Shown here: piece after piece, positions 3,678 through 62,880 of the stretch
Position numbering within the stretch: position 1 is the stretch's first letter
Layout of the letters: each line of letters opens with the position of its first letter
NCBI GenBank assembly: GCA_964006375.1
Contig: OZ023269.1
Span: 1,302,001-1,366,000, forward strand
Length of the DNA stretch: 64,000 nt
Direction: 5' to 3'
DNA from: Tillus elongatus
Lineage: Eukaryota > Arthropoda > Insecta > Coleoptera > Cleridae
Notes under the pieces: model-generated
The model's database searches: none
What the model saw: the letters and a program-made list of their open reading frames with translations, nothing else
What the model was told of the DNA's origin: nothing
Translations under genes and position numbers: made by a program

Positions 3678-4165
3678 ATGTCTGGACGCAGCAAGTGCGT
3701 TATGGTACTGAATTTTCATAAAAATATTTTTAATAGCAAATATTTCTTTTTTTTAAAGAAGGCAGGCATGAAATTTGGTTACCAGTATAACCTGTATAGC
3801 AGAAAAAATGTACCATACTTCATCAAAATAACTTTATTGTTTGAAAATGTAAAAACAAATTCGAAATGAAACTCAAGAAGTTCCCGAAAAAACTGGTTCC
3901 TAGCCAACGAATGTTAAGTTAATAGCAAATTGAGTTTTTTCCTTCGAAAAATTTTTTTTCTCCAAAAATTACAAACCTATTTCAATGAAATTTTGTGAAT
4001 ATATAGTTTTTGATAAGGCGTTACTACGTACCACACTTCAACTTTATAAGTTTATAGAAAATTGAATTATTCCATTTTGAATTTTCGAAAAAAAAATCCC
4101 CGGAAATTACAAAGTTATTTTAATGAAATTTGGTGAAAATGTTTCCTCAAGAAAGGTCTTACTAC
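3678..4165 (+). repeat. Module B fragment plus two copies of a composite-repeat arm
   Basis: 3681-3935 begins CTGGACGCAGCAAGTGCGTT, the end of the palindromic module B found at 35388 and 57357, but lacks the far terminal repeat. It is followed by two related arm segments (about 3955-4060 and 4090-4165), each with AATTACAAA..TATTT.AATGAAATTT and ending in a TTACTAC(G/A)TACCA stretch. The same kind of arm flanks (TA)n elsewhere. Truncated by the LINE at 4168. Confidence 0.65.
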
Positions 4166-4167
4166 AT

Positions 4168-7566
<3,399 letters not shown>

Positions 7567-24703: not shown

Positions 24704-25740
24704 ACCGATAACTCAAAAAATAATGGGCCGATTTTGATTAAATTTGGTGAATACCTTCCTTCTGCAAATGGCTTGGACAAGTTCGTTAGTCAGGAAAATC
24801 GGCCCAGGTTTTCCCGGAACATTTTGTGTTTTCTTTCAAAAAAAAAAATTATATCTCCGGAATTGACAAAGTGAGGGCAACCACATTTGGTACGCTGCTT
24901 TATGTCGTTATAGGTGAGCTATCTACCAAAATTTAGCTCTGTAGATCAAAAGACAAAGAAGTTATGGGCATTTAAAGAAAAGCAAATTGGGGTTTTCCTC
25001 AAAACGTCAAAGTGACAATTTAAAACGTCAAAATTCGCGACATTTAAGCAAAGAACTTGAATCTAATACGGGCTATGAAAAGAAAATGTCTCAAGAAGAA
25101 TGTTTTACAAACCCTGAGGTCTTAGTTTCAACGGTCATTGTCCTTCATTTTACTAAAATATTTCTAGAAAATTCATTTCAAATAGAGCCTTCTCTGATGC
25201 TTGGCAGTAGCCTTAGCTATAGAGTTTATCGTTTAATGGTATATAATTTTTGTCGAATTTCCGTAAAAAATCAATAAAGCTCAATATACCCGTTATTATA
25301 CAAGATATGACAAAATATTTTATACATTAATTATACGGTGTCTTGAGCTACACCTTAAAAAATATTGCTACAATCACAGGATGGCCCATAAGTCGTTGGT
25401 GATACTAATAATATTTTTTTTATCGAAAACGCCTTATGTTTTTGCATTTTCCATCGAAATATAATGCATGTTTGTGAGTTAAGAAATTATGGACGCAGCA
25501 AGTGCGTTAAGGTAGCGAATTTTGATTAAATGCTTCATATTTGAAAAGCTCAATTTGCTATTAACCTATAAGGTACACCAAGAAATTGATTTTTTCGGTT
25601 ACACTTTAAGTTTACTTTCGGAAATTTTTGTACGTTTTCAAACAATAAAGCTATTTTGATGAAACATAGCACATTGTTTTTATTTATCCATAAAATTGAA
25701 AATTACCAGCAACATAGTCCTAAATAAGCTTCACTTTATA
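24475..25740 (-). mobile_element. Near-complete composite repeat A-(TA)n-arms-C-B
   Basis: Read left to right this is the mirror image of 57357-58650. Module A with its terminal hairpin AGTGACTTTTCTT/AATTCACTAATGAGG (24475-24600); (TA)n (24608-24700); CACACCGATAACTCAAAAAA and a long arm with AATCGGCCCAGGTTTTCCCG (about 24800), GGTTTTCCTCAAAACGTCAA (about 24992), and CTTAGTTTCAACGGTCATTG (about 25122); module C with AAGCTCAATATACCCGTTAT (about 25276) and GGCCCATAAGTCGTTGGTGA (about 25384); then module B starting GGACGCAGCAAGTGCGTTAA (25491). No coding capacity is visible. The plan of a microsatellite core plus a terminal hairpin recalls non-autonomous Helentron-type elements, but this assignment is inference. 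Confidence 0.75.
24608..24700. repeat. (TA)n core of composite repeat
   Basis: A TA tract of 93 bp at the same internal site as in the copies at 18637 and 58458. Confidence 0.95.
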
Positions 25741-26344: not shown

Positions 26345-26601
26345 AGATTTTCCTAGTTCGCGCTCATTTGAAGAATTTTTTTCCAAATTCAAAAGTCGAG
26401 ATCTCATCATTAGTGAGTTTTTTAAAGAAAATTCACTAAAATAAAAATATCCAAATCGGTCTAGCCGTTCTCAAATGATGCGCTTACCAACGAAGAGAGA
26501 TCGAGATTGTTCAAATGATACGAAAAAAAAATATATACGTTAATTATGGGTGTCTTGACGTTTCACAGGGTAGCCCATCAGTCGTGGCTGATACAAACTT
26601 T
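26345..26601 (+). repeat. Module A and module C fragments
   Basis: Module A at 26355-26450 (AGTTCGCGCTCATTTGAAGA, AAAAGTCGAGATCTCATCAT, hairpin). Module C at 26540-26601 (ATTATGGGTGTCTTGACG, GTAGCCCATCAGTCGTGGCT), interrupted at 26601 by the retroelement insertion and continued from 27425. Confidence 0.7.
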
Positions 26602-26698
26602 GTAATTTCTGAACGTCACAACGTCTGGGTTAGACATATTTCCAAGGTAAAAAAGAACAGAACAAGGCTATGCTCCAGACTGAATTTTTATTAGGTAA

Positions 26699-26745
26699 AA
26701 GCCCTACGCGTTTCGGCCCATAAATCTGGCCATCATCAGGGGCTT
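26699..26745 (-). ncRNA. Hammerhead ribozyme, left arm
   Basis: On the minus strand: stem I AAGCCC (26745-26740), core CTGATGA (26739-26733), stem II GGCC/GGCC, GAAA (26714-26711), a minimal stem III in ACGCGT, cleavage triplet GTA, and the other stem I strand GGGCTT (26704-26699). All invariant core positions of the hammerhead are present. Very short stem III is characteristic of Penelope-associated hammerheads, which are thought to work best as dimers. Confidence 0.82.
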
Positions 26746-27305
26746 CCTGAAACATTACAAAAGGTGGTTGTGTCAGAAAGAAAGTCTCTGGTAGGTCGGC
26801 AAGTATCACACGATACCCGCTGTTACAGAATTCTAAACAGTCTTACAAGCAAAGTCTAAAAACACAAACTATAGTCAAAACTAACATTCTCTATAACAAA
26901 TTACACTAATAAAATCAAAGCTAAAAGCTAAAAGTTAAGAAGTTAAAAACATCAAATGTCCAAAGCTCAGTCGAGGCACCTCTAAGCAGCAAAAATGCAA
27001 AAGCAGTGAACGTTACCAAAACAGGCAGAAACCCGTGTAAATTAAGATTTAGAATTGCAATGACACACTACAATGTAAGAATAGTTATTAGTGTAATGAT
27101 GTTTTTAACTTCTTAACTTTTAGCTTTTAGCTTTGATTTTATTAGTGTAATTTGTTATAGAGAATGTTAGCTTTGACTATAGTTTGTGCTTTTAGACTTT
27201 GCTTGTAAGACTGTTTAGAATTCTGTAACAGCGGGTATCGTGTGATACTTGCCGACCTACCAAAGACTTTGTTTCTGACACAACCACCTTTTGGAATGTT
27301 TCAGG

Positions 27306-27352
27306 AAGCCCCTGATGATGGCCAGATTTATAGGCCGAAACGCGTAGGGCTT
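27306..27352 (+). ncRNA. Hammerhead ribozyme, right arm
   Basis: Stem I AAGCCC (27306-27311), core CTGATGA (27312-27318), stem II GGCC (27320-27323) with GGCC (27333-27336), GAAA (27337-27340), minimal stem III ACGCGT, predicted cleavage after A27346 in GTA, and stem I return GGGCTT (27347-27352). The loop of stem II differs slightly from the left arm (AGATTTATA here, AGATTTATG there). Confidence 0.82.
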
Positions 27353-27646
27353 TTACCTAATAAAAATTCAGTCTGGAGCATAGCCTTGTTCTGTTCTTTT
27401 TTTACCTTGGAAAAAAAAAAGAAAGATACAAACTTTCTTTGTTTTAATAGAACCCCCTAATTATTATTGCATTTTTGCATTTTCCATCGAATTATAACGC
27501 AACATTGTGAGGAAAAAATGATAGTGTTAATCGTTTTCTAGTTATTTGAATTGTTTTGGAACTTTTCACATTTTTGGCAAATATCAAAAATTATGGCATG
27601 ATGTTTTAGCGCACTTTAAAAAAAAATCACTAATGAGGAGATATGT

Positions 27647-27784: not shown

Positions 27785-28105
27785 CGCAAGTCAAAGGGGG
27801 CATACACCCACCCTCGTTGCATAAACTGCAAGAAAAACTTCTTGTTCATACCCCCCAAGGAAGTTACGTGACCTGGGGGCGAATAGGAGTACTGTGCGAG
27901 GTAGGCGGGGTGTAATGGGGATATAGCTTCAAATAGACAGCTTTTAAGCAGTTTTGTTTGCTTTTTCTGCTCATATTTCCTTTTCACTACCTACTCCGCC
28001 CAGCACCCCTATTCACTCCCAGTCCCGTAACTTCCTTGGGGCGTGTGAACAGGAAATTTTTGTTGTGGTTTGTGCATCCAGGTGGGGTCCTGGTAATATT
28101 TCTGT
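27785..28105. mobile_element. Foldback (long inverted repeat) element
   Basis: The left arm (about 27790-27915) contains CCCCCCAAGGAAGTTACGTG and GCGAATAGGAGTACTGTGCG. The right arm (about 27985-28105) contains CAGTCCCGTAACTTCCTTGG and its flanks, the reverse complement with about 20 percent mismatches. The spacer is about 70 bp. Higher GC than the neighbourhood. No coding sequence, so probably a MITE or foldback element of unknown superfamily. Confidence 0.65.
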
Positions 28106-30893: not shown

Positions 30894-31482
30894 GTTATAT
30901 GTTTATGTTAAATATTGACATACATCACCTAGACATTTTGAAGGCGTCATCCCTCATTCTGGTTTTATTTTATTTTCATTTTATAGAGTTCTTTGGTCAA
31001 AACATCATTACATAGCAACGGATCTTTATTTGTGGTTGTCATTATTTCGTATTAATTCAATATTATTCTATCTGAGGATGTTGTCAGACAGCGAACCGGT
31101 CACAGAAACGTTGCAGAACATCCTAGAACATCTAGAATTTAGATGGGCCATTTGCTCCAGTTAGCTAACGCACTGGCTACGTCCTTCATTTACAAAAACA
31201 GAAACAAAAAATGAAGACATAGAAGTATCCAAGTCTGTATGTAGTATGGACCAGTTTCATCAAGTAAGGGCAACAGCAATCAACGAATTCATGGTTGTTT
31301 TTTACATTGGACGCTTCCATGCAGCTAGTGTGAAGTTTATACTTGTTCACTAAGTGTAAGTAAGACACGAAGCACGTGCCGCCACCTCGTTGCGGAAAAA
31401 TAGAGACTGTACACAACCAACTAACAATTTAGTACATTGTCAGCCCTGGCCCATTGATACCTTAATATAGGGACAAAGTATG
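30894..31482. other. Unassigned; possible degenerate hammerhead-like stretch
   Basis: At 31072-31120 the plus strand has CTGAGGA, a weak helix, GAAA and GTT, but the stem pairings are poor. Nothing else recognised. Confidence 0.3.
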
Positions 31483-31484
31483 TA

Positions 31485-31667
31485 AGGCTAGATACATTCT
31501 CACCACAATTAGAACCGTAGACCGGTTTCGCTCTAATTAGAGCGCCTCAGTATAGCCGTATTACTTTATAGGTGTATTTTCGCTGCAATTAGTATGCCGT
31601 ACTGACGAGCTCTAATTACAGCGAAACCGGTCTACGGTTCTAATTGTGGTGAGAATGCATCTAGCCT
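31485..31667. mobile_element. 183 bp TA-flanked MITE
   Basis: Terminal inverted repeats of about 55 bp begin AGGCTAGATACATTCTCACC and end with its near-exact complement. TA dinucleotides flank it directly (31483-31484 and 31668-31669), as expected for a Tc1/mariner-type target duplication. The internal part includes TTATAGGTGTATTTTCGCTG. A degenerate relative lies at 1728-1858. Confidence 0.85.
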
Positions 31668-31669
31668 TA

Positions 31670-32857
31670 TATTTGTCATTTTTCATTTGTATATTTTAGA
31701 TTCTTTTGTGTATGTGTTTTATATATTTATATCTTTATGTGCATATGTGTGTATACGTATGAAATGTTGACTTGTTCTGTGCTCTATTGGGGTGATTTGA
31801 ATGAATGAATTTTCTATCAATCTTTATACCTATTATTTACTATATTATGAATTAATAACTGATTGAGAGTAGTTTTCTAAATAAATCGAAAACTGATTTT
31901 CATGAAAATTCGCTACCCTACCATTCTTCCTGTTTTATGTCTTTTTCGGCCAGTTATTCTAGAATCTGATACAATTATATGAAAGCCTGTTATAAAATAT
32001 TCATAATGTAAATTAAAAATAATGAATTTTAACAAAATTAGGCTAGGTTGACTTGTACATTAGTGCAGCAGACATAAAATCAAATTTGAAAGATTCATAC
32101 GTAGTTGACATGAATAAAGTAGGGGTACATATTTTAGTAGGTACACTCGAAATTTCCTAACCTAATTATCGTGAATGTAACGTGAAGTAATTTTATATAA
32201 GTGTACGAGATGTTGTGGCACTAAGGCATGAGGCAGTATGATCTAGGCGTCTTCTACCCCACAGGATTTTAATGGCTAAAGTTACATTACCTTTCCTTGC
32301 GTCACATCTATCCAGATGGTAGGAAATGTCTCTGGATCTTTTACTAGACACGCGCGTTTATGCATAGCCAAATAAGGGACGCTACAGGTTATATTATCCT
32401 CAAGCCAACTCCATCTATGAACGTCTGCCTAACATTTTACGAAAATTTAGAGAAAACCACGTTAGCATTAGTTTATTATTTGCCAGTCTGCATCCAATTA
32501 AATTCATTATGGCGTTAGTGAGTTGCCTCTGAAGTATACGGTAGACTTGCTTCATCCGGCCTAAACAGCTTATCAAAAGGCTTGAAAGCCACAAGCCTAT
32601 ATATGCATATACCCATTTGAAAACAGTTTTCACCCGGAAGTTTCACCTGACTCAAAGTTTAATTATTATTTACGAAACTGTTACAAGCCAAGTAAGGACT
32701 TAGTTGTTTGGGGAATAATTAGATTATTACTTAGGCTATGGTTTATATAAGTAAATGTCCAAAAAACATTTATTGGCTAGGTGTATTTCTGATAAAAATA
32801 CACTCAATGTTGGTGTATTTAGATACATAGATAAGCAGATATATAGATGGCTAGATA
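31670..32857. other. Unassigned spacer
   Basis: Nothing recognised. Confidence 0.5.
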
Positions 32858-32859
32858 TA

Positions 32860-33199
32860 CAGTGTGGAACAGCCAAATGGAATAAATTCGATAACGGATA
32901 AATGAGGGCGTGTTGGGAAAAACGCTTGGACACGTCGATTTGTATTTTTAACTGCGCATCTTTTTCAAGAAAAAAAAATTATTTAGGGTGCGTCATGTGA
33001 CAGTGGCCAATACCAACTTTCTTATTTTAAATACAAGCCCCTGTATATTATTAATTTTTTGGATTCTTCAGAAAATTCTAGACATAATTCATGTACAATG
33101 TCCTATACCTATCTTCAACTGTTTCGGAAATATTAAGTATTTTCAGATTTATTACAAAAATTAACATTAAAAATAGAAAATTATTTTATTTCACAAATT
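32860..33199. repeat. Left terminal inverted repeat of the mariner-type element
   Basis: 340 bp, near-perfect complement of 34589-34928. It ends 59 bp from the transposase stop codon. Confidence 0.95.
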
Positions 33200-33258
33200 C
33201 TAATAAGAAATACTGATTATTTCTTAATAATTTAAAAAAAAACAAAAAAAAATTAATG

Positions 33259-34347
33259 TCAATGTAGTAAATGTTCAAAATGCTCGCCACGAACATCTTG
33301 GCAACATGCTAATCTGGTATAGAAATGTCTTCTAACATTACTCAACATCTCAGGCGTGACTGATCTAATCGCAAGCGTGATTCGTCTTTTTAAGTCATCT
33401 AAGTTGAGGGGCTTAGTTTTGTATACAATACTTTTGACATATCCCCACAAAAAGTAGTCTAATAGCGACAGATCAGGAGATCGTGCTGGCCATTCTATCG
33501 ATCCGCGCCTCCCTATCCACCGATTTGGAAAAATTTGGTTCAGGTACTGCCGGACATTGATTTGGTAATGGGGGGGTGCTCCATCTTTCTGAAACCATAT
33601 TTTATTGGCAGGAACTTGTGGGTTTGCTGGATCTGGATATAAGTTTGTCAAAGTTGGCACGACATTATTTTGGAGCAGTTCTAAATATTTATCCCCATTC
33701 AAGTTGCCATCAGTGAAAAAGGGACCTACGATATGATTTCCAACAATTCCTGCCCAAACATTAACTTTTTCAGGATATTGCGTATGTTCCTCTCTCATCC
33801 AATGAGGATTCTCATTAGACCAATAGCGGCAATTTTGACGATTAACATGACCGTGAAGTGTAAATGTGCTCTCATCAGAAAACAAAACATCTTCTAATTG
33901 GATCACATTGTTATCTAACATTGCCATCATTTGTTCACAAAAATACGTTCTCCTATCGAAATCGTCCTCCATGAGCTCCTGAGTTGGTATCATTTTATAG
34001 GGATGCATTTTACTTTCCTTTAATGTTCGAAAAATTGCTGTGTGGCTAACGTTGAATAGTTGGGCTGCTTGTCGACCAGAAGTATGTGGGTTTTCTTGAA
34101 ACTCAAGCGTAATATCCAATTTCGTATCATCACTTACTGCATTGGCAGCTACTTTTTTTATCTGTCTCACATGACCAAGCTCGCGAAACTGCTTTTCTAT
34201 TTTGCTAATTGTTCCTTGGGATACAGGCGGCAAATTTGGAAATTTTTCGTGAAATAAGCGAGACACTTCCATCTGTGTCCGTGTGTTATCTCCATAACCA
34301 ATCATTTGTAGAATGGTTATTTTGTGCATTTCTGTTAAATGAACCAT
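33259..34347 (-). CDS. Mariner-type transposase, DD41D-like, intact
   Basis: A 362-residue cut-and-paste transposase. An N-terminal bipartite helix-turn-helix region (about residues 5-60 and 75-112, including TISKIEKQFRELGHVRQ and GRQAAQLFNVSHTAIFRTLK) should bind the terminal repeats. The RNase H-fold catalytic domain follows, with Asp158 in FSDEST, Asp255 in QKDGAPPH and the third Asp at 297 in SPDLSLLDYFLWG. That leaves 41 residues between the second and third Asp, against 34 in classical mariner, so it belongs with DD41D-type Tc1/mariner lineages. The start at 34347 gives the usual family length. No stop, frameshift or missing catalytic residue is seen. The gene lies wholly between the element's repeats, so its promoter is presumably within 34348-34928. 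Confidence 0.93.
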   Translation of the reverse strand: MVHLTEMHKITILQMIGYGDNTRTQMEVSRLFHEKFPNLPPVSQGTISKIEKQFRELGHVRQIKKVAANAVSDDTKLDITLEFQENPHTSGRQAAQLFNVSHTAIFRTLKESKMHPYKMIPTQELMEDDFDRRTYFCEQMMAMLDNNVIQLEDVLFSDESTFTLHGHVNRQNCRYWSNENPHWMREEHTQYPEKVNVWAGIVGNHIVGPFFTDGNLNGDKYLELLQNNVVPTLTNLYPDPANPQVPANKIWFQKDGAPPHYQINVRQYLNQIFPNRWIGRRGSIEWPARSPDLSLLDYFLWGYVKSIVYKTKPLNLDDLKRRITLAIRSVTPEMLSNVRRHFYTRLACCQDVRGEHFEHLLH

Positions 34348-34588
34348 TTTTCTGATATTATTACGTACAGTTAACGAAATTCAAACGACAATAGCACTGA
34401 CACTAATCACTACTGTCATGCAGGCAGACAACAAGTTGCTAAGGCTACGAGTTTTATACGAACAGAAAGAAAACTGTTTTTGTTTTTGTTTCATTTCATA
34501 TCAGTAAAAAGAAACGCAGGAATGGTTTTTGTTTACTTTCTCATTATCAAGAGCTGAATGGGAAATAAGTATTGAATGCAATGTAGCG

Positions 34589-34928
34589 AATTTGTGAAAT
34601 AAAATAATTTTCTATTTTTAATGTTAATTTTTGTAATAAATCTGAAAATACTTAATATTTCCGAAACAGTTGAAGATAGGTATAGAACATTGTACATGAA
34701 TTATGTCTAGAATTTTCTGAAGAATCCAAAAAATTAATAATATACAGGGGCTTGTATTTAAAATAAGAAAGTTGGTATTGGCCACTGTCACATGACGCAC
34801 CCTATATAATTTTTTTTTCTTGAAAAAGATGCGCAGTTAAAAATACAAATCGACGTGTCCAAGCGTTTTTCCCAACACGCCCTCATTTATCCGTTATCGA
34901 ATTTATTCCATTTGGCTGTTCCACACTG
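34589..34928. repeat. Right terminal inverted repeat of the mariner-type element
   Basis: 340 bp, upstream of the transposase gene, so it probably also contains its promoter. Confidence 0.95.
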
Positions 34929-35172
34929 TATAGATAATATACTGGTCATATTAGTTAGTTAGTTGATGAACAAATTATGCAACGCATCTTACAAATAAGT
35001 CAATAATTTGTGGCTGTAATTAAGGCAATTAAGGTTTAAATAACATTTAAAACTGGAGCAGCTCAAAACCTCTTGACATAAGTAATTCTGTTTACAGCAC
35101 ATCAATATACATACATTTAAAAAACCTATGTGCCCTTAACATTTGAGTGGTCGCGTGGGGCATGTGTTACCC

Positions 35173-43374: not shown

Positions 43375-45020
43375 TTAGTGAATTTTCTCTAAAAAAATTC
43401 ACTAATGAGGAGATCTTGATTTTTGAATTTTGAAAAAATTTATTTAAAGGAGCGCGAACTAGGCCCCCTTGAACCCAGATTAAATTTCGATTAAATTTTG
43501 TGGATACCTCCCTTTTGCTAATTTCTTGGATCAGTTCGTTATCCAGAAAAATCGGCCCAGTTATTTTTCAAAAACGTATTTTCTTTTATAAAACTTTTAC
43601 ATTTTCGGAAATAACAAGCTCAGGGCAACCAAATTTGGTACGCGGTGTACATTATCAAATTCAACTATGTACCAAAATCTGGACCGCTAAGTTAAAAGAA
43701 AAATAATAAGTTATAAGCATTTAGAGAAAAAAATTTGGGTGCCGCTGCTGACCAGAGAAACGCACAACAACAAAATATTTTGTGTGGATAACAAAAGGTA
43801 TTGTATATTACAGACAAAGATTAAGCTTTTTGGTGCAAAAAGTCAAGAAATTACACAAACATTACATTCAAATTTTTATGGTTTTGTCTCTTAAAACGTC
43901 AAAGTCGCGATTGAAAATGTCACGAGAATTGTGTTTTACAAACCCTTAAGTTTCAGCTTCAATCGTCATTGTTCTTCATTTTACAAAAACATTTCCAGAA
44001 ACATCATTTCAAATAGACCCTTTCTTTCATACTTTGGCAGTAGTTTTAGTTATAGAGCGCATGGTTTAATAGTCTGTAATTTTTAGCCAATTTTCGTGGA
44101 AAAAAATCGCTGTGGGGGAGACTGCGACTTTTGAATTGTGAGAAGGTTTCTTCAAATGAGCGCGGACTTGGCCCCCTAAAACCCACATATACAGAGTGGC
44201 GCATTTTTAAGCTAAAGCTCAATATATCCATTATTATACATGAAGCGAGAAACAATTGTATACGTTGATTATAGGGTGCCTTGAGCTGTGTCTTACAAAA
44301 TGATTTTATTAATCACAGGCTGGCCAACAAGTCGTTGGTGATCCAAATTTTCTTTGTTTTTTAATGGAACAGCCCTTGTTTTATTGCATTTGTGCATTTT
44401 CCATCGAATTATAATGCATGTTTGTAACACAAAAATGTAAAGTGTTAATCGTTTTTGAGTTATTTCAATTGTTTTGCAATTTTTCACATTTTTGGCGCAT
44501 ATCAAGAATTATCATACGGAACGTTTTTACCCATTGATAGCGGGTCCTATAAAAATGACGCCTTCACAGATGTTTTTGTTTATATTATTTATTAATGTTT
44601 GTCTTTTTTTAAACAATAAAGTTATTTTGATAAAAGTGGTACATTTTTTCTACTATATAGGTTATAGATTTCAAAATTTATATTTAAATTTTATACTTAT
44701 TTAGATAAATATAAAGTAAAGGCAACGATTGAAATAAAATATAAAATAAAAAACTGGTAAAGCAAATTTGATTAACTTGATGTACCAAATTCAAGTTGCC
44801 AGTGTCAGAATGTGTGTTTTGGAGACAATATAGTGTTTGGAACCTACCTTAGTCCAAATTGCATTAGAGGCAATCACAAGCTTAGAGCTTATATACCAGA
44901 TTGTACAATTGGCTTTAATAAAACATATTATTATTGTTATTAAAAAGACATAATATTATGTAGTTATTAAGAACATTTTTATAAAGATTCACTACCATAA
45001 CGCACTTGCACAGACTTTTA
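43375..45020 (-). repeat. Cluster of composite-repeat fragments
   Basis: Module A at 43380-43475 and 44095-44185; arms at 43485-43740 and 43900-44060 (CTTAAGTTTCAGCTTCAATC); module C at 44185-44420 (ATATACAGAGTGGCGCATTT, GGCCAACAAGTCGTTGGTGA); module B parts near 44600-44650 and 44985-45015. No complete unit, so nested or recombined copies. Confidence 0.65.
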
Positions 45021-50329: not shown

Positions 50330-52021
<1,692 letters not shown>

Positions 52022-52036
52022 ATTCCCCCTTTCTAA
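52022..52036 (-). promoter_or_regulatory. Polypurine tract for plus-strand priming
   Basis: On the minus strand AGAAAGGGGGAAT lies directly upstream of the 3' LTR. Two similar tracts occur inside the element, at about 53055-53067 and 54311-54322. Confidence 0.8.
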
Positions 52037-54654: not shown

Positions 54655-54932
54655 TATTTTATTAAAATTTTCTATGAAAATAACTTTATTTTTACAAAGA
54701 AAAAATTTTTTATCATGTTCTTTTTAGGTCAAAATTTTTTTTTTTTAGAAGTCCCACGACTTGGGCGCCATTTTGCTAATTTCTTGGCGGACCAAGTTGA
54801 TTTTAAGTTATGATGGTTTGAAACTAATTTTTTTTTTCTCTATGAAAATAAATTAACTTAGACCAAAAAAAAATTTTGATAATTATATTATTATGTATTT
54901 TTTTTTAAAGCCCTTTAGTTGCGGCGCCATTT
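54655..54932 (-). promoter_or_regulatory. Duplicated leader with two primer-binding-like sites
   Basis: Just inside the 5' LTR the minus strand reads TAGCA, AAA, TGGCGCCGCAACTAAAGG (from 54929). About 160 bp further in, at 54770, it reads TAGCAAAATGGCGCCCAAGTC and on to GTGGG. TGGCGCC complements the 3' end of tRNA-Lys type primers. Flanking CTATGAAAATAA stretches (54674 and 54841) show that the whole segment, LTR tip included, was duplicated and then diverged. Confidence 0.7.
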
Positions 54933-56437
54933 TGCTATGGTATTCTACTTTACTTTATGGGTAGCATATACCTGCAAAAATTTATTATAGAGCTGAGAAC
55001 ATACGTCCTAATCATCAGGTTGGGTTCCTTATAATTACAGCTAGCTTCTACTAATTAAAATTCACTAATATGTGTTATTTAAATTCATTTATTGATTTTC
55101 ACTTGATCAAAATTACTATCGCTTTGCACAGATGGCTATATAACAATTTTGCTGATTAAATATCAACCAAAAACAATACTTCCGTTAATTACAATCTGTT
55201 ATACATTCCATTTAATTTATTGCACAAATTTTACGGTGTCTATTTGACACACATTAAACACAAACAGAAACGTTTAAAGCATTCAATACATAAACATAAC
55301 TTGAGAAATCCTATTAAAACATTTAACTGTGCCGATATGACACTTGTTAAATACAAAGAGATATTTTAAAACATTCTTTACATAAATATAACTTGAAAAA
55401 TCCTATTAAAAAAACATTCTGGTAACATTATAACTAATTACACAATTAATTAAACATGGATACTACATAATCAATATACATCGATAATTCTACAGAACGG
55501 TCTCTTTCCGTTTATTTCAAACAAAATTTTTGTTTTTGAAATTTATTAGCACAAAAATATTTGATTGTTGTTGTAAAAATGGTGAAATTCCACCCGCACT
55601 GGTCAATTTAAGAAAAGGTAACACTTACTGACATATTTTCCATTGGATTATTTATTGTTCTTCCATTAATACGGACCTTGATTAATTATTATTATCTTTC
55701 TCATTTGTCCATGCCATTGATTATTAACGGATTTACTTCGTTAACATATTGATATATATTTATTCCATAGTCGTAGCACTCTGGAGGTGTTTTATACCCT
55801 CACTTCGATGCACTCTGGAATCTTAGTTATGACGATGATCACCTGGTCTGGTAAAGTGATACAGATGATTTCACTGGATGGAAAAGACAAGACAAGCCCG
55901 GACTCTCTCGGACCGTTGCTTTTATTAACTCTCCTACAGGTGAAAAAACGCTATTCTTCGTCACACACCTGTGTTTAAGTTTTCCGTCAAACCTTTAACG
56001 TCTTTTTACGTTTTTTTCTGACGCGCACATCACCTTAATATTCTACAAACCTTTGTTTGTTATAAATGACCTCCGCTCTTTCACTACATTGAGTCTTTAG
56101 CTAGCTTGGTCATATATATTTTTTTTATACAATAAAATCAACAAGACTACAATTATATTATCTACAATCTCATTCTCCCTACAAAACTGAAGCATTGTTC
56201 TTGGTTTCTTTACGGATTTCTAGTATATAATATAGTTTTTTATTACTCGAATGTAACTTAACATCGAGGGTTGCTACATGGGTCACTGACATTCATGTCG
56301 GGCGTTGACATCTCCTGCCAAAACTCTTTCATTGCTACATTAGGGTGTATACACTTATTTTATATATACTAGTATGCATAAATTTCCCGTTTTCCTATTA
56401 AAATTTCGTAATATTTCCTATCATTTGCTATCTATAG

Positions 56438-56439
<2 letters not shown>
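54933..56439 (-). repeat. 5' LTR (right copy)
   Basis: 1507 bp, near-identical to the left copy. As the upstream LTR on the minus strand it should hold the promoter. AT-rich TATA-like stretches (about 56350-56380) exist but I cannot single one out. Confidence 0.95.
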
Positions 56440-56531
<92 letters not shown>

Positions 56532-57356: not shown

Positions 57357-58453
57357 AAAGTCTGGATGCAGCCAGTGCGTTATGGTAGTGAATTTTCATT
57401 AAAATGTTTTTAATAGCAAATATGTGTATTTTTTAAAGAAAGCAGGCATCAAATTTAGTTACCAGTATAACCTATATAGTAAAAACAATGTGCCATGTTT
57501 CATCAAAATAACTTTATTGTTTAAAAATGTACAAAAATTTCCGAAAGTACACTTAAAGTGTTCCCGAAAATCGTTTCTTGGTCAACCTTATAGGTTAATA
57601 GCAAATTAAGCTATTCAAATATGAAGCATTTGATCCAAATTCGCTACCATAACGCACTTGCTGCGTCCAGAATTTCTTTTCTTACAAACATGCATTATAT
57701 TTCAATGGAAAATGCAAAAATGCAATAACATAAGGCGTGTTTGATTAGAAAATTTGTATCACCAACGACTTATGGGCCACCCTATGATTTTAAAAATAAT
57801 TTTTTAAGATGTAGCTCAAGACACCCCATAATTAATATATACAATTTTTTTCGTATCTTGTATAATAACGGATATAATAAGATTTATTGATTTTTTTACG
57901 AAAATTCGACAAAAATTATATACCATTAAACGATAAACTCTATAGCTGAGGCTACTGCCAAGCATCATAGAAAGGGTCTATTTGAAATGAATTTTCTGGA
58001 AAAATTTTAGCAAAATGAAGGACAATGACGGTTGAAACTAAGACTTCAGGGTTTGTAAAACATTCTTCTTGAGACATTTTATTTCCACAGCCCGTATTAG
58101 ATTCAAGTTCCTTGCCTAAATATTGCCAATTTTGACGTTTTAAATCGCAACTTTGACGTTTTGAGGAAAACCCCCTTTTTTTAAATGCCTATAACTTGTT
58201 TGTCTTTCAAACGACAAAGCTAAATTTTAGTACGCGACTTACCCATAAAGAAATAAACCCGCGTGCCAAATTTAGTTGCCCTTGCTTTGTTAATTCCGGA
58301 GATATAAAAAATTTTCGAAAGAAAACACAACATTTTCCGGGAAAACCTGGGCCGATTTTCCTGGATAACGAAGCTATCCAAGCCATTTGCAAAAGGAAGG
58401 TATTCGCCAAATTTATTCAAAATCGGCCTATTATTTTTTGAGTTATCGGTGTG

Positions 58454-60740: not shown

Positions 60741-60931
60741 TGAATATTTTGTCGCCGATGCGATACTTCCACGCGTTCTGACGGTGTGGAAGTAATATCG
60801 TGTAAATACTGTGTTAATTTGTTTTATTAATATTTTATTATGAATACTTATGATTACTGCTGGTTGTGTTTACATTATATAATTACAAAAAGTATTGATA
60901 ATCTCTAAAAGAAAAATAATCTGATACGTAC

Positions 60932-61547
60932 AATTGTAGTAGAGTAGAACTCCAGAAACTAGAACAAAGATAATGACTAGAAGCACCAAAATGAGCAATA
61001 GAATGGTAGGTCGACACCAGGACGTTAAACAAGACTCTCTAGCTGGAGGAGTCGTTGAAGTTTGTGAACTCAGACACCAGCCGCAGGAGTCTGGTTCAGC
61101 GGGAGCTGCTGCTTCCTGCAAATGGGAGGACCGCACAACACTGCTATCACCCGAAGCGTTCACTACTACTCCACGATACACGTTCACGTTAGCCCGAGGT
61201 ATAAAACCGTCATCATCTTCGTCGGATCGCATCCTGGTGTCATTATATACCCCGTAGGAAGCTACCATACTCGCTGCAGGGTGTAGACCGTTGCTGTTTC
61301 TTGCGGTAGCTCTCATTTTTAATTCTAATTGTTCACTAGACTCTGGCCAACATTTACATGGACAGCTACTAGTGCTCTGATCTGGATTTATTTTATCTGA
61401 ACCGTCGAGTTCTGGCCCATAAATCGATGGCTCCCTTACGTACCAAGATTCACTATACGTTGGGGGCAACTTATTGTTAACACTATTATAATCGAAATTT
61501 GATTGAATGTTTTCTGTGTTTTTCACTACTGGGGCGTTATACACCAT
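60932..61547 (-). CDS. First coding exon of a type II membrane protein (host gene)
   Basis: The minus frame starts at ATG 61547 in a good context (ACAATGG) and runs 205 codons to a splice donor ATT|GTACGTATC, so the exon ends at 60932 and the intron is phase 1. An alternative donor, GTATCAG, would end it at 60928. The peptide has a hydrophilic N-terminal region of about 178 residues and one transmembrane helix at about 181-203 (TILLLILVLLVIIFVLVSGV). There is no signal peptide, so a cytoplasmic N-terminus is expected. Visible motifs: PPTY (28-31), a WW-domain ligand type; CPCKCW (about 62-67); an acidic SDEDDD (108-113); Cys pairs just before the membrane. GC is well above the surroundings and there is no repeat similarity. 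I cannot name the gene. Confidence 0.7.
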
Positions 61548-62880
61548 TGTTTCATTACATGCGTTCTTTTCTTTATCATATTTGAATTATTAAGTAGCTA
61601 GAACTATGGTTATATTAAGTGATCTAACGCCACTGTGACCAGATGCAGATTTTCAAACTATTATTTGAAGAGAAAGTCGTGTGCGTCATCTTCTGTTCAG
61701 TGTCAGGCTGGAAAATACAAAAAACATAAATTATGGTGAAAATTATGCGACAAAATTTGGAAGAGTACACATTATCTCAGCTTTCGGACGATATGTTAAC
61801 AAATCAAAGTTTATAATAAGATACAGCCGAATTTTGTGTTTGTTTATTTTATTTATTGTAATCAACGTCCACCAAAAAATCTCAGTAATAAGGCAGACAT
61901 TTGACATATTTTACAGCAGACGAAACGAACAAACATGAGTATCAAATTATAAATTTTCGCAAACTAACTTTTTATAAAGAACTAAACTAAAGCAAAAACC
62001 CGTTTAGCTTGCCACAACTATTGTCAAGGAAAGAAAAAGGCGTATACGACTTATTAATAAAACATTTAAACTTGTCACAACTAAACTTAGAGGGTAACAA
62101 AAAATTGTATTCGTAGATACTAGACTAAATATTCTTTTTAGATAAGTTAGTATACAGTTTCCTTTATTTCTCCCCATTGTTTTTTACCTCCCAAACCGTG
62201 GCCCATTCTTTGCAGACTATTTTTATACCTTTACTATATTATATACCTATATTACCCATATGCAATTATATCCTGCTCTCATTTATATTTTAAATATTTA
62301 TATTAATTATCACCTTAACCTAAGGACCAAAACCGGGACACTCGCTTCGTGTCTTGGGGTCGTTCAAGACAACTTTATATAAACACAAAACAGGTGACCA
62401 CAGGTAAGGTTTGGTTGGACATTAGGAAAGAAATTGGGAATCTTAGAATCTATACATTATTACTAAAACTAATATTTACAAATATACAGCTTTCAATTAT
62501 ATGTACCAATGTTATACACACTATGCACCCCAAATAGATACAGAGCTCTCAATGTTATTAAACTAAGTGATGAATCTTACCGTTTTTAATAAACTCTATT
62601 ATTTTAGTTAGTATAGCTTTTTCTCCGTTAACAGTAGGCTGTTGGTATCTATTGGTAATTGTATACTGTATCTTAAGAGAGATGAAAGCAACTCCCTAAT
62701 TTGAGTCGATGTTTTTGAAAACTAAAAAGCAAATGATTGTTATCGCAAATACTTGTTCCATCACATTCTCAGTACGGGTTGTCTGCTAACTTCATTTTCC
62801 AAAGGCGATATTTGCAAGCACTGTAGCCTACACTTGTTCTGACCAGCGCTGTATAGATAGGTCTGGAGAGTTCTACTATA
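61548..62880. other. Upstream region of the host exon
   Basis: It should hold the 5' untranslated region, an upstream intron or the promoter. I cannot pick out a promoter. No repeat family recognised. Confidence 0.4.

Follow-up and report, generated by a model that had tools for sequence, protein, structure and literature searches.

A small palindromic insertion with two hammerhead-type motifs, read as a truncated copy of a Penelope-like element

Introduction

What kind of sequence occupies positions 26602-27424 of the window (the whole 64-kb stretch of DNA analysed here), and how did it come to be there? The initial annotation described this 823-bp interval as a palindrome that had been inserted in one event, that bore a complete hammerhead ribozyme on each of two outward-facing arms, and whose plan was possibly a new, minimal form of non-autonomous element. 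Much of that description points towards Penelope-like elements (PLEs). Copies of PLEs are known for 5’ truncation on insertion, for inverted pLTRs, and for short 3’ extensions found in individual copies (PMC8969392), and their pLTRs carry minimal type I hammerheads that have no helix III (PMC7761336, PMC6155905). We argue here that the unit is a severely 5’-truncated, non-coding PLE copy that gained, at its 5’ side, an inverted second copy of the element’s 3’ end (the pLTR together with its minimal hammerhead and its tail), a reading to which we give a probability of about 0.77.

Results

The insertion is made up of five parts (37 + 316 + 142 + 317 + 11 bp; Table 1). Its two arms lie head to head and are 97.8% identical over 317 columns, differing by six substitutions and one indel that falls inside a run of T. 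The copies of GATACAAACTTT on either side agree at 12 of 12 positions and are AT-rich, with G or C at only 3 of the 12. Inverted repetition does not extend to the outermost 37 bp and 11 bp, and only the left arm has a tail. On the minus strand this tail begins T-ATG and stays open for 12 codons, a length that is not significant alone, and as a stem-loop it folds no better than shuffled sequence (z 0.22 and -0.44). No ORF of at least 150 aa is listed within 26602-27424, and there is no reverse transcriptase or endonuclease gene, in agreement with the earlier statement that the unit has no gene of its own. The 64-kb window contains no further copy of an arm or of the spacer, all other matches being of 31 columns or fewer; it holds a single inverted pair of arms and no direct pLTR partner. 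Just downstream of the insertion, at 27806-28088, lies a weaker self-palindrome (70% over 294 columns).

Table 1. Features of the insertion and its borders (window coordinates)
Feature	Position	Strand	Basis
Left target-site duplication, 12 bp, GATACAAACTTT	26590..26601	none	Empty-site alignments
37-bp extension past the common arm end, read as a PLE ‘tail’	26602..26638	-	Published tail lengths
Left arm, read as an inverted pLTR	26639..26954	-	97.8% identity to right arm
Hammerhead-type motif, left arm	26699..26745	-	Predicted cleavage after 26705
Spacer between the arms, 142 bp	26955..27096	+	Frames open in two plus readings
Right arm, read as a direct pLTR	27097..27413	+	Identity to left arm
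Hammerhead-type motif, right arm	27306..27352	+	Predicted cleavage after 27346
A-rich end, 11 nt, AAAAAAAGAAA, where a tail would stand	27414..27424	+
Right target-site duplication, GATACAAACTTT	27425..27436	none	Identical to left copy

Relatives of the surrounding sequence that lack the insert are found within the same window. When the flanks are joined with one copy of the duplication they match 44313-44512 across the junction (82% over 201 columns). The insert is also absent, in a four-way alignment, near 57646-57850 (reverse) and 25321-25490, two relatives that differ by small gaps or changes at the duplication or next to it. Because the joined flanks match unoccupied relatives, the GATACAAACTTT pair is a true target-site duplication. 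The duplication, together with the unoccupied relative at 44313-44512, supports the proposed single-event insertion of the palindrome, which would most simply account for the whole unit, and the boundaries and the intact 12-bp duplication were found as originally claimed. An assembly artefact was considered and rejected, as the duplication and the empty relative speak against a false join.

Both arms carry the motif AAGCCC-CTGATGA-T-GGCC-(9 nt)-GGCC-GAAA-CGCG-TA-GGGCTT, in which the last of the 9 nt differs between them. Its stem I, AAGCCC/GGGCTT, is formed by 27306-27311/27347-27352 on the plus strand and by 26745-26740/26704-26699 on the minus strand. The window has two matches to the pattern CTGATGA-N(1-20)-CGAAACGCGT, one on each strand, whereas none of 100 shuffles contains it. 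Sites combining the core, stem II, a NUH cleavage site and stem I number three in the window (the two arms and one at 31602), with none in 100 first-order Markov copies. A looser scan returned five rows, namely the two arms, the 31602 site and two rows for one minus-strand site; this last site was dropped, since its stem II and its stem I spacing look implausible and it is absent from the stricter scan.

The core of a minimal type I hammerhead, with stems I and II, is thus seen in both arms. The claim of a full hammerhead in each is right as far as the features it listed (CTGATGA, GGCC/GGCC, GAAA, GTA and AAGCCC/GGGCTT) and goes too far otherwise: compared with the textbook form, stem III is missing, with CGCG alone in its place, and one additional U separates A9 from stem II. 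No helix III appears in the sequence of the arm motif or in its centroid folds. Among 100 distinct hammerheads found by one phage-type stem-I/core pattern, 13 have the extra U at the same place. These hammerheads come from 130 loci, comprising a metagenomic contig (L011, described below) and stretches of IMG/VR contigs; by a simple stem count, 76 of the same 100 have stem II directly after A9, one has an extra G and 10 fit neither form. To judge from these sequences, the extra U is a recurrent natural form. Insertions elsewhere in the hammerhead core are reported to have reduced cleavage (PMC3088659).

The arms did not register with covariance models of the hammerhead. No Rfam hammerhead model matched them, either at the gathering score across the whole window or at E<=10 within 26500-27500, where the two matches returned are at chance level (SNORD83 over the left flank and tail, and SAM-II in the spacer). 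Rfam is insensitive here: a hammerhead-like stretch at 31584-31654 scored no more than 22.6 bits where the gathering score is 52, and four well-formed hammerheads on L011 were missed at E<=1. Its silence is weak evidence against the arm motif.

Predicted folds give a different picture for the motif on its own and for the motif in its setting. Folded alone, it yields a centroid consisting of stems I and II around an open core in all four stretches folded; the minimum-energy folds contain extra core pairs in three of the four and take a different form in the fourth. A single motif is unremarkable beside shuffled sequence, with 13 to 87 of 200 shuffles folding as well or better. When a pair of sense copies is folded together, the predicted structure is a symmetrical double hammerhead whose stem III comes from ACGCGU/ACGCGU self-pairing; its energy is -39.3 to -39.8 kcal/mol, compared with about 2 x -16. 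The PLE hammerheads of Lunse et al. 2017 reportedly, as their title has it, ‘cleave RNA as dimers’. Like the arm motif, they lie in a pLTR and lack helix III, and dimer action is what the folding predicts for the motif here.

A PLE tandem can place a pair of sense copies on the same RNA, but each strand of the palindrome holds one sense and one antisense motif. When the 823-nt RNA is folded in silico, the sense motif pairs with the opposite arm at 47 of 48 nt (plus strand) and 48 of 48 nt (minus strand), and the minimum free energies of the whole-unit transcripts are -566 and -591 kcal/mol. Because the sense motif is predicted to pair with the other arm, the palindrome is unlikely to cleave itself, and its transcript is better described, on this modelling, as a hairpin than as a double ribozyme. 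With so much of each motif predicted to be buried, two working ribozymes in the unit, as first proposed, seem improbable. The hammerhead of an Anolis PLE needed the element’s protein in order to cleave, and in vitro the element could insert without it (PMC11167929); insertion here therefore need not depend on a ribozyme.

The spacer is open in two plus frames. Frame 1 is open for 32 codons from 26942 (26 from 26960) to a stop at 27038-27040. Frame 2 starts at 26940, is open for 58 codons and continues into the right arm, where it stops at 27114-27116; because both are open, neither stands out. A Pfam search with the 26-aa spacer frame only gave no match at E<=1. The spacer and tail frames were compared with a protein collection as a 477-aa query, of which the last 142 residues were scored, and none of 31 candidates reached E<=10 in this search, which omitted proteins longer than about 834 aa and with them, perhaps, full-length PLE proteins. 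With a 158-aa query (126 residues scored), 5 of 7,984 scored candidates had E of 2.3-9.2 and are taken as chance; this search was weak, as its artificial linker probably drew junk and scoring was limited to candidates sharing most words. Our guess is that the spacer may derive from the 3’ end of a PLE gene (its last codons and 3’ UTR) or else from captured DNA.

A second head-to-head pair, unrelated in sequence to the first, is present at 31480-31672, with 73-bp arms that are 93% identical and 47 nt apart. Its plus strand has CTGACGA, a 3-bp stem II, GAAA, CCGG, TC and an extended stem I, and this intact type I core falls in the Rfam-scored stretch at 31584-31654 mentioned above (Hammerhead_HH9, E 0.0042, below the gathering score). 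The minus strand has a degraded hammerhead (19.4 bits, E 0.043). Folding speaks against a hammerhead in this palindrome: none emerges cleanly at minimum energy, a longer stretch favours a different structure, and a pair of copies folded together fails to give the double form. Exact duplications flanking the palindrome do not exceed 6 bp. A single copy of this second hammerhead family lies at 1765-1860 on the minus strand, where an 11-nt deletion takes out the core CTGACGAGCTC; Rfam does not recognise it, and it adjoins one end of a repeat also present at 4173, 15763 and 30196. Comparison with this copy suggests that the left arm of 31480-31672 is a shorter, 5’-truncated one.

Discussion

The anatomy of the unit agrees with that of PLEs in its inverted pair of pLTRs, its target duplication, its one-sided tail and its minimal hammerhead. 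Published PLE tails are 30-40 bp long (PMC11167929), and 31 bp in Adineta (PMC3846280). The unit lacks the PLE reverse-transcriptase gene, with or without a GIY-YIG endonuclease, and is therefore not an autonomous PLE. Because neither the unit nor the frame searches revealed PLE coding sequence, the link to PLEs rests on terminal structure and the hammerhead. The layout itself has a precedent, as published Penelope elements combine head-to-head inverted pLTRs with a target duplication and with a tail carried by one of those pLTRs (PMC3846280). The proposal of a hammerhead-bearing, gene-free insertion of Penelope type thus stands, and the proposed novelty of the two-arm plan does not; the unit is mostly ordinary.

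Comparison with individual elements brings out what is particular to it. Pen2a_Av of Adineta vaga (PMC3846280) likewise has inverted pLTRs, which in that species are most often head to head, with a target duplication of 9 bp (12 bp here) and an optional one-sided tail of 31 bp (37 bp here). Unlike Pen2a_Av, the unit has no reverse transcriptase/endonuclease gene, only 142 bp between its arms and no second direct pLTR. The Adineta paper makes no mention of hammerheads, whereas the unit has two such motifs. In a few cases the same paper reports solo pLTRs, with target duplications, that enclose non-coding DNA unrelated to the element; these too are pLTRs placed round non-coding DNA, and the passage gives neither their orientation nor their size. 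Poseidon PAc of Anolis carolinensis (PMC11167929) resembles the unit in having a hammerhead pLTR beside an ATG and an optional tail that ends at a reverse-transcription start. In PAc the gene begins at the hammerhead, with the start codon at the beginning of stem II, downstream of C3 and G8, and the cut 26 bp further on. In our unit the ATG starts at A9, the predicted cut lies 29 nt on, and the frame closes after 9 codons, at the predicted cleavage site, leaving the next ATG downstream in the 37-bp extension.

We infer that a PLE protein would have cut both target strands 12 nt apart, and that each cut 3’ end would have primed the copying of one RNA. One copy would have begun at the tail end, and the second would have begun where the pLTR ends or close by. 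Both would have stopped early, and their ends would have been joined in the middle. Two starts on opposite strands would yield head-to-head copies, unequal outer ends and the 12-bp duplication in one step. The hammerheads would be passengers in this process, belonging to the tandem RNA of the parent element, whose sense copies could pair through ACGCGU; in a transcript of the palindrome each is predicted to be locked in a hairpin of ~317 bp. The Anolis PLE protein does cut and extend both strands, and its tail is the stretch between two reverse-transcription start sites; a stem-loop marks the start site, and 5’-ATT-3’ is the preferred cut (PMC11167929). The parallel is incomplete, because the tail here has no better-than-shuffle stem-loop and no 5’-ATT-3’ motif is visible in the 12-bp duplication.

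A possible alternative, which we nonetheless regard as doubtful, is snap-back copying, in which a PLE product primed itself and was then inserted. It differs from the account above only in the origin of the inverted arm, and it is the explanation that the Adineta authors favour, with an antisense template, for head-to-head junction palindromes (PMC3846280). The 97.8% identity of the arms is consistent with it. The outer ends, with 37 bp on the left and an A-rich end on the right, fit two independent starts better, a mild objection that would lose its force if the shorter arm were the copy. The unit might instead belong to an established non-autonomous family, its whole palindrome being transcribed and mobilised in trans by a PLE so that the two-arm plan itself replicates. 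The target duplication, the clean boundaries and the lack of any ORF of at least 150 aa would suit such a family, as would the sequences reported between solo pLTRs (PMC3846280). We think this unlikely, since the 64-kb window has no second copy of arm or spacer and the transcript, a long hairpin, would presumably serve poorly as a template and would be likely to provoke silencing.

Two readings outside the PLEs carry less weight. Metazoan retrozymes, which spread through circular RNAs of about 170-400 nt (PMC7229834), are likewise small, non-coding and hammerhead-bearing, and a 317-bp arm falls within that range, so that an inverted dimer of one could be imagined. The published retrozymes in that source, however, have canonical hammerheads and tandem repeats, whereas the window holds one inverted pair whose hammerhead is minimal and PLE-like, lacks helix III and has no Rfam match, and which carries a one-sided extension of the PLE kind; we therefore reject this very improbable origin. 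Hardest of all to credit is a foldback or MITE-type DNA transposon that carries the motif by chance. Inverted repeats and a target duplication are what such an element would show, yet here the repeats do not reach the duplication, the outermost 37 and 11 bp differ, one end is A-rich and the arms hold a hammerhead core of the PLE kind. The unequal termini led us to reject a DNA transposon.

If the unit is, as we propose, a truncated PLE copy, its interest lies in how it was made. A small copy with both ends, a perfect duplication and an empty relative provides a clear footprint of PLE palindrome formation. Whether such palindromes arise by self-priming or by priming on both strands is left open in the PLE literature compared here, and the unequal ends are as two independent starts predict. 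As a new type of element the unit would have little weight unless more two-arm copies with the same spacer exist. The predicted concealment of palindromic motifs within a hairpin also suggests that counts of hammerhead motifs in a genome may overstate the number of active ribozymes.

It is tempting to ask whether head-to-head insertion is general, affecting in this genome two unrelated kinds of hammerhead retroelement (the PLE-type pLTR and the type I, retrozyme-like hammerhead at 31480-31672, whose left copy likewise seems to be the shorter), with one machinery, most simply a PLE protein that primes on both strands, inserting both. We offer this tentatively and think it rather improbable on the strength of the second palindrome. 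If true, a shared PLE machinery would speak directly to how metazoan retrozymes are mobilised, a question that is still open. Among titles and opening lines in the literature we recognised no description of inverted retrozyme pairs, which is no proof of their absence.

Additional observations

The arm motif was also sought in other collections. Neither its exact nor its looser form matched in a viral contig collection; in a genome contig collection the exact form had 0 matches and the looser form 15 loci, two of which (L012 and L011) were looked at closely, and the other 13 are taken as chance matches in bacterial DNA. On its plus strand, L011 (QYPT01000005.1) has a group of four well-formed hammerheads that spans about 1.1 kb (3757-4850). 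The contig is 5.3 kb long, has 41% GC and is filed under a Streptomycetaceae MAG, and at least three of the four hammerheads lie at the ends of short ORFs. It had no match in a phage collection, and one of its ORFs had no relative in the viral contig collection. A pattern related to the L011 hammerheads was found in 115 IMG/VR stretches. There is precedent for a polycistronic RNA that carries several hammerheads (PMC3088659).

The window has other features of note. A 1.5-kb direct duplication with 99.8% identity is formed by 50511-52023 and 54929-56441, the two copies starting 4.4 kb apart. On the minus strand, 33259-34380 contains a transposase-like ORF of 373 aa, open from stop to stop, with a Pfam DDE_3 match below the cut-off (E 0.0028). 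It is flanked by inverted repeats of 345 bp at 32856-33200 and 34588-34932 (99.4% identity), and ORF and repeats together are perhaps a recent DNA-transposon insertion. The one host-like ORF searched, at 60870-61586 on the minus strand, makes a beetle the probable source of the window. It shares 62% identity with an Asbolus verrucosus protein across 84% of its length and has other named matches in Phaedon cochleariae (59%) and Nicrophorus vespilloides (43%); all three species are beetles.
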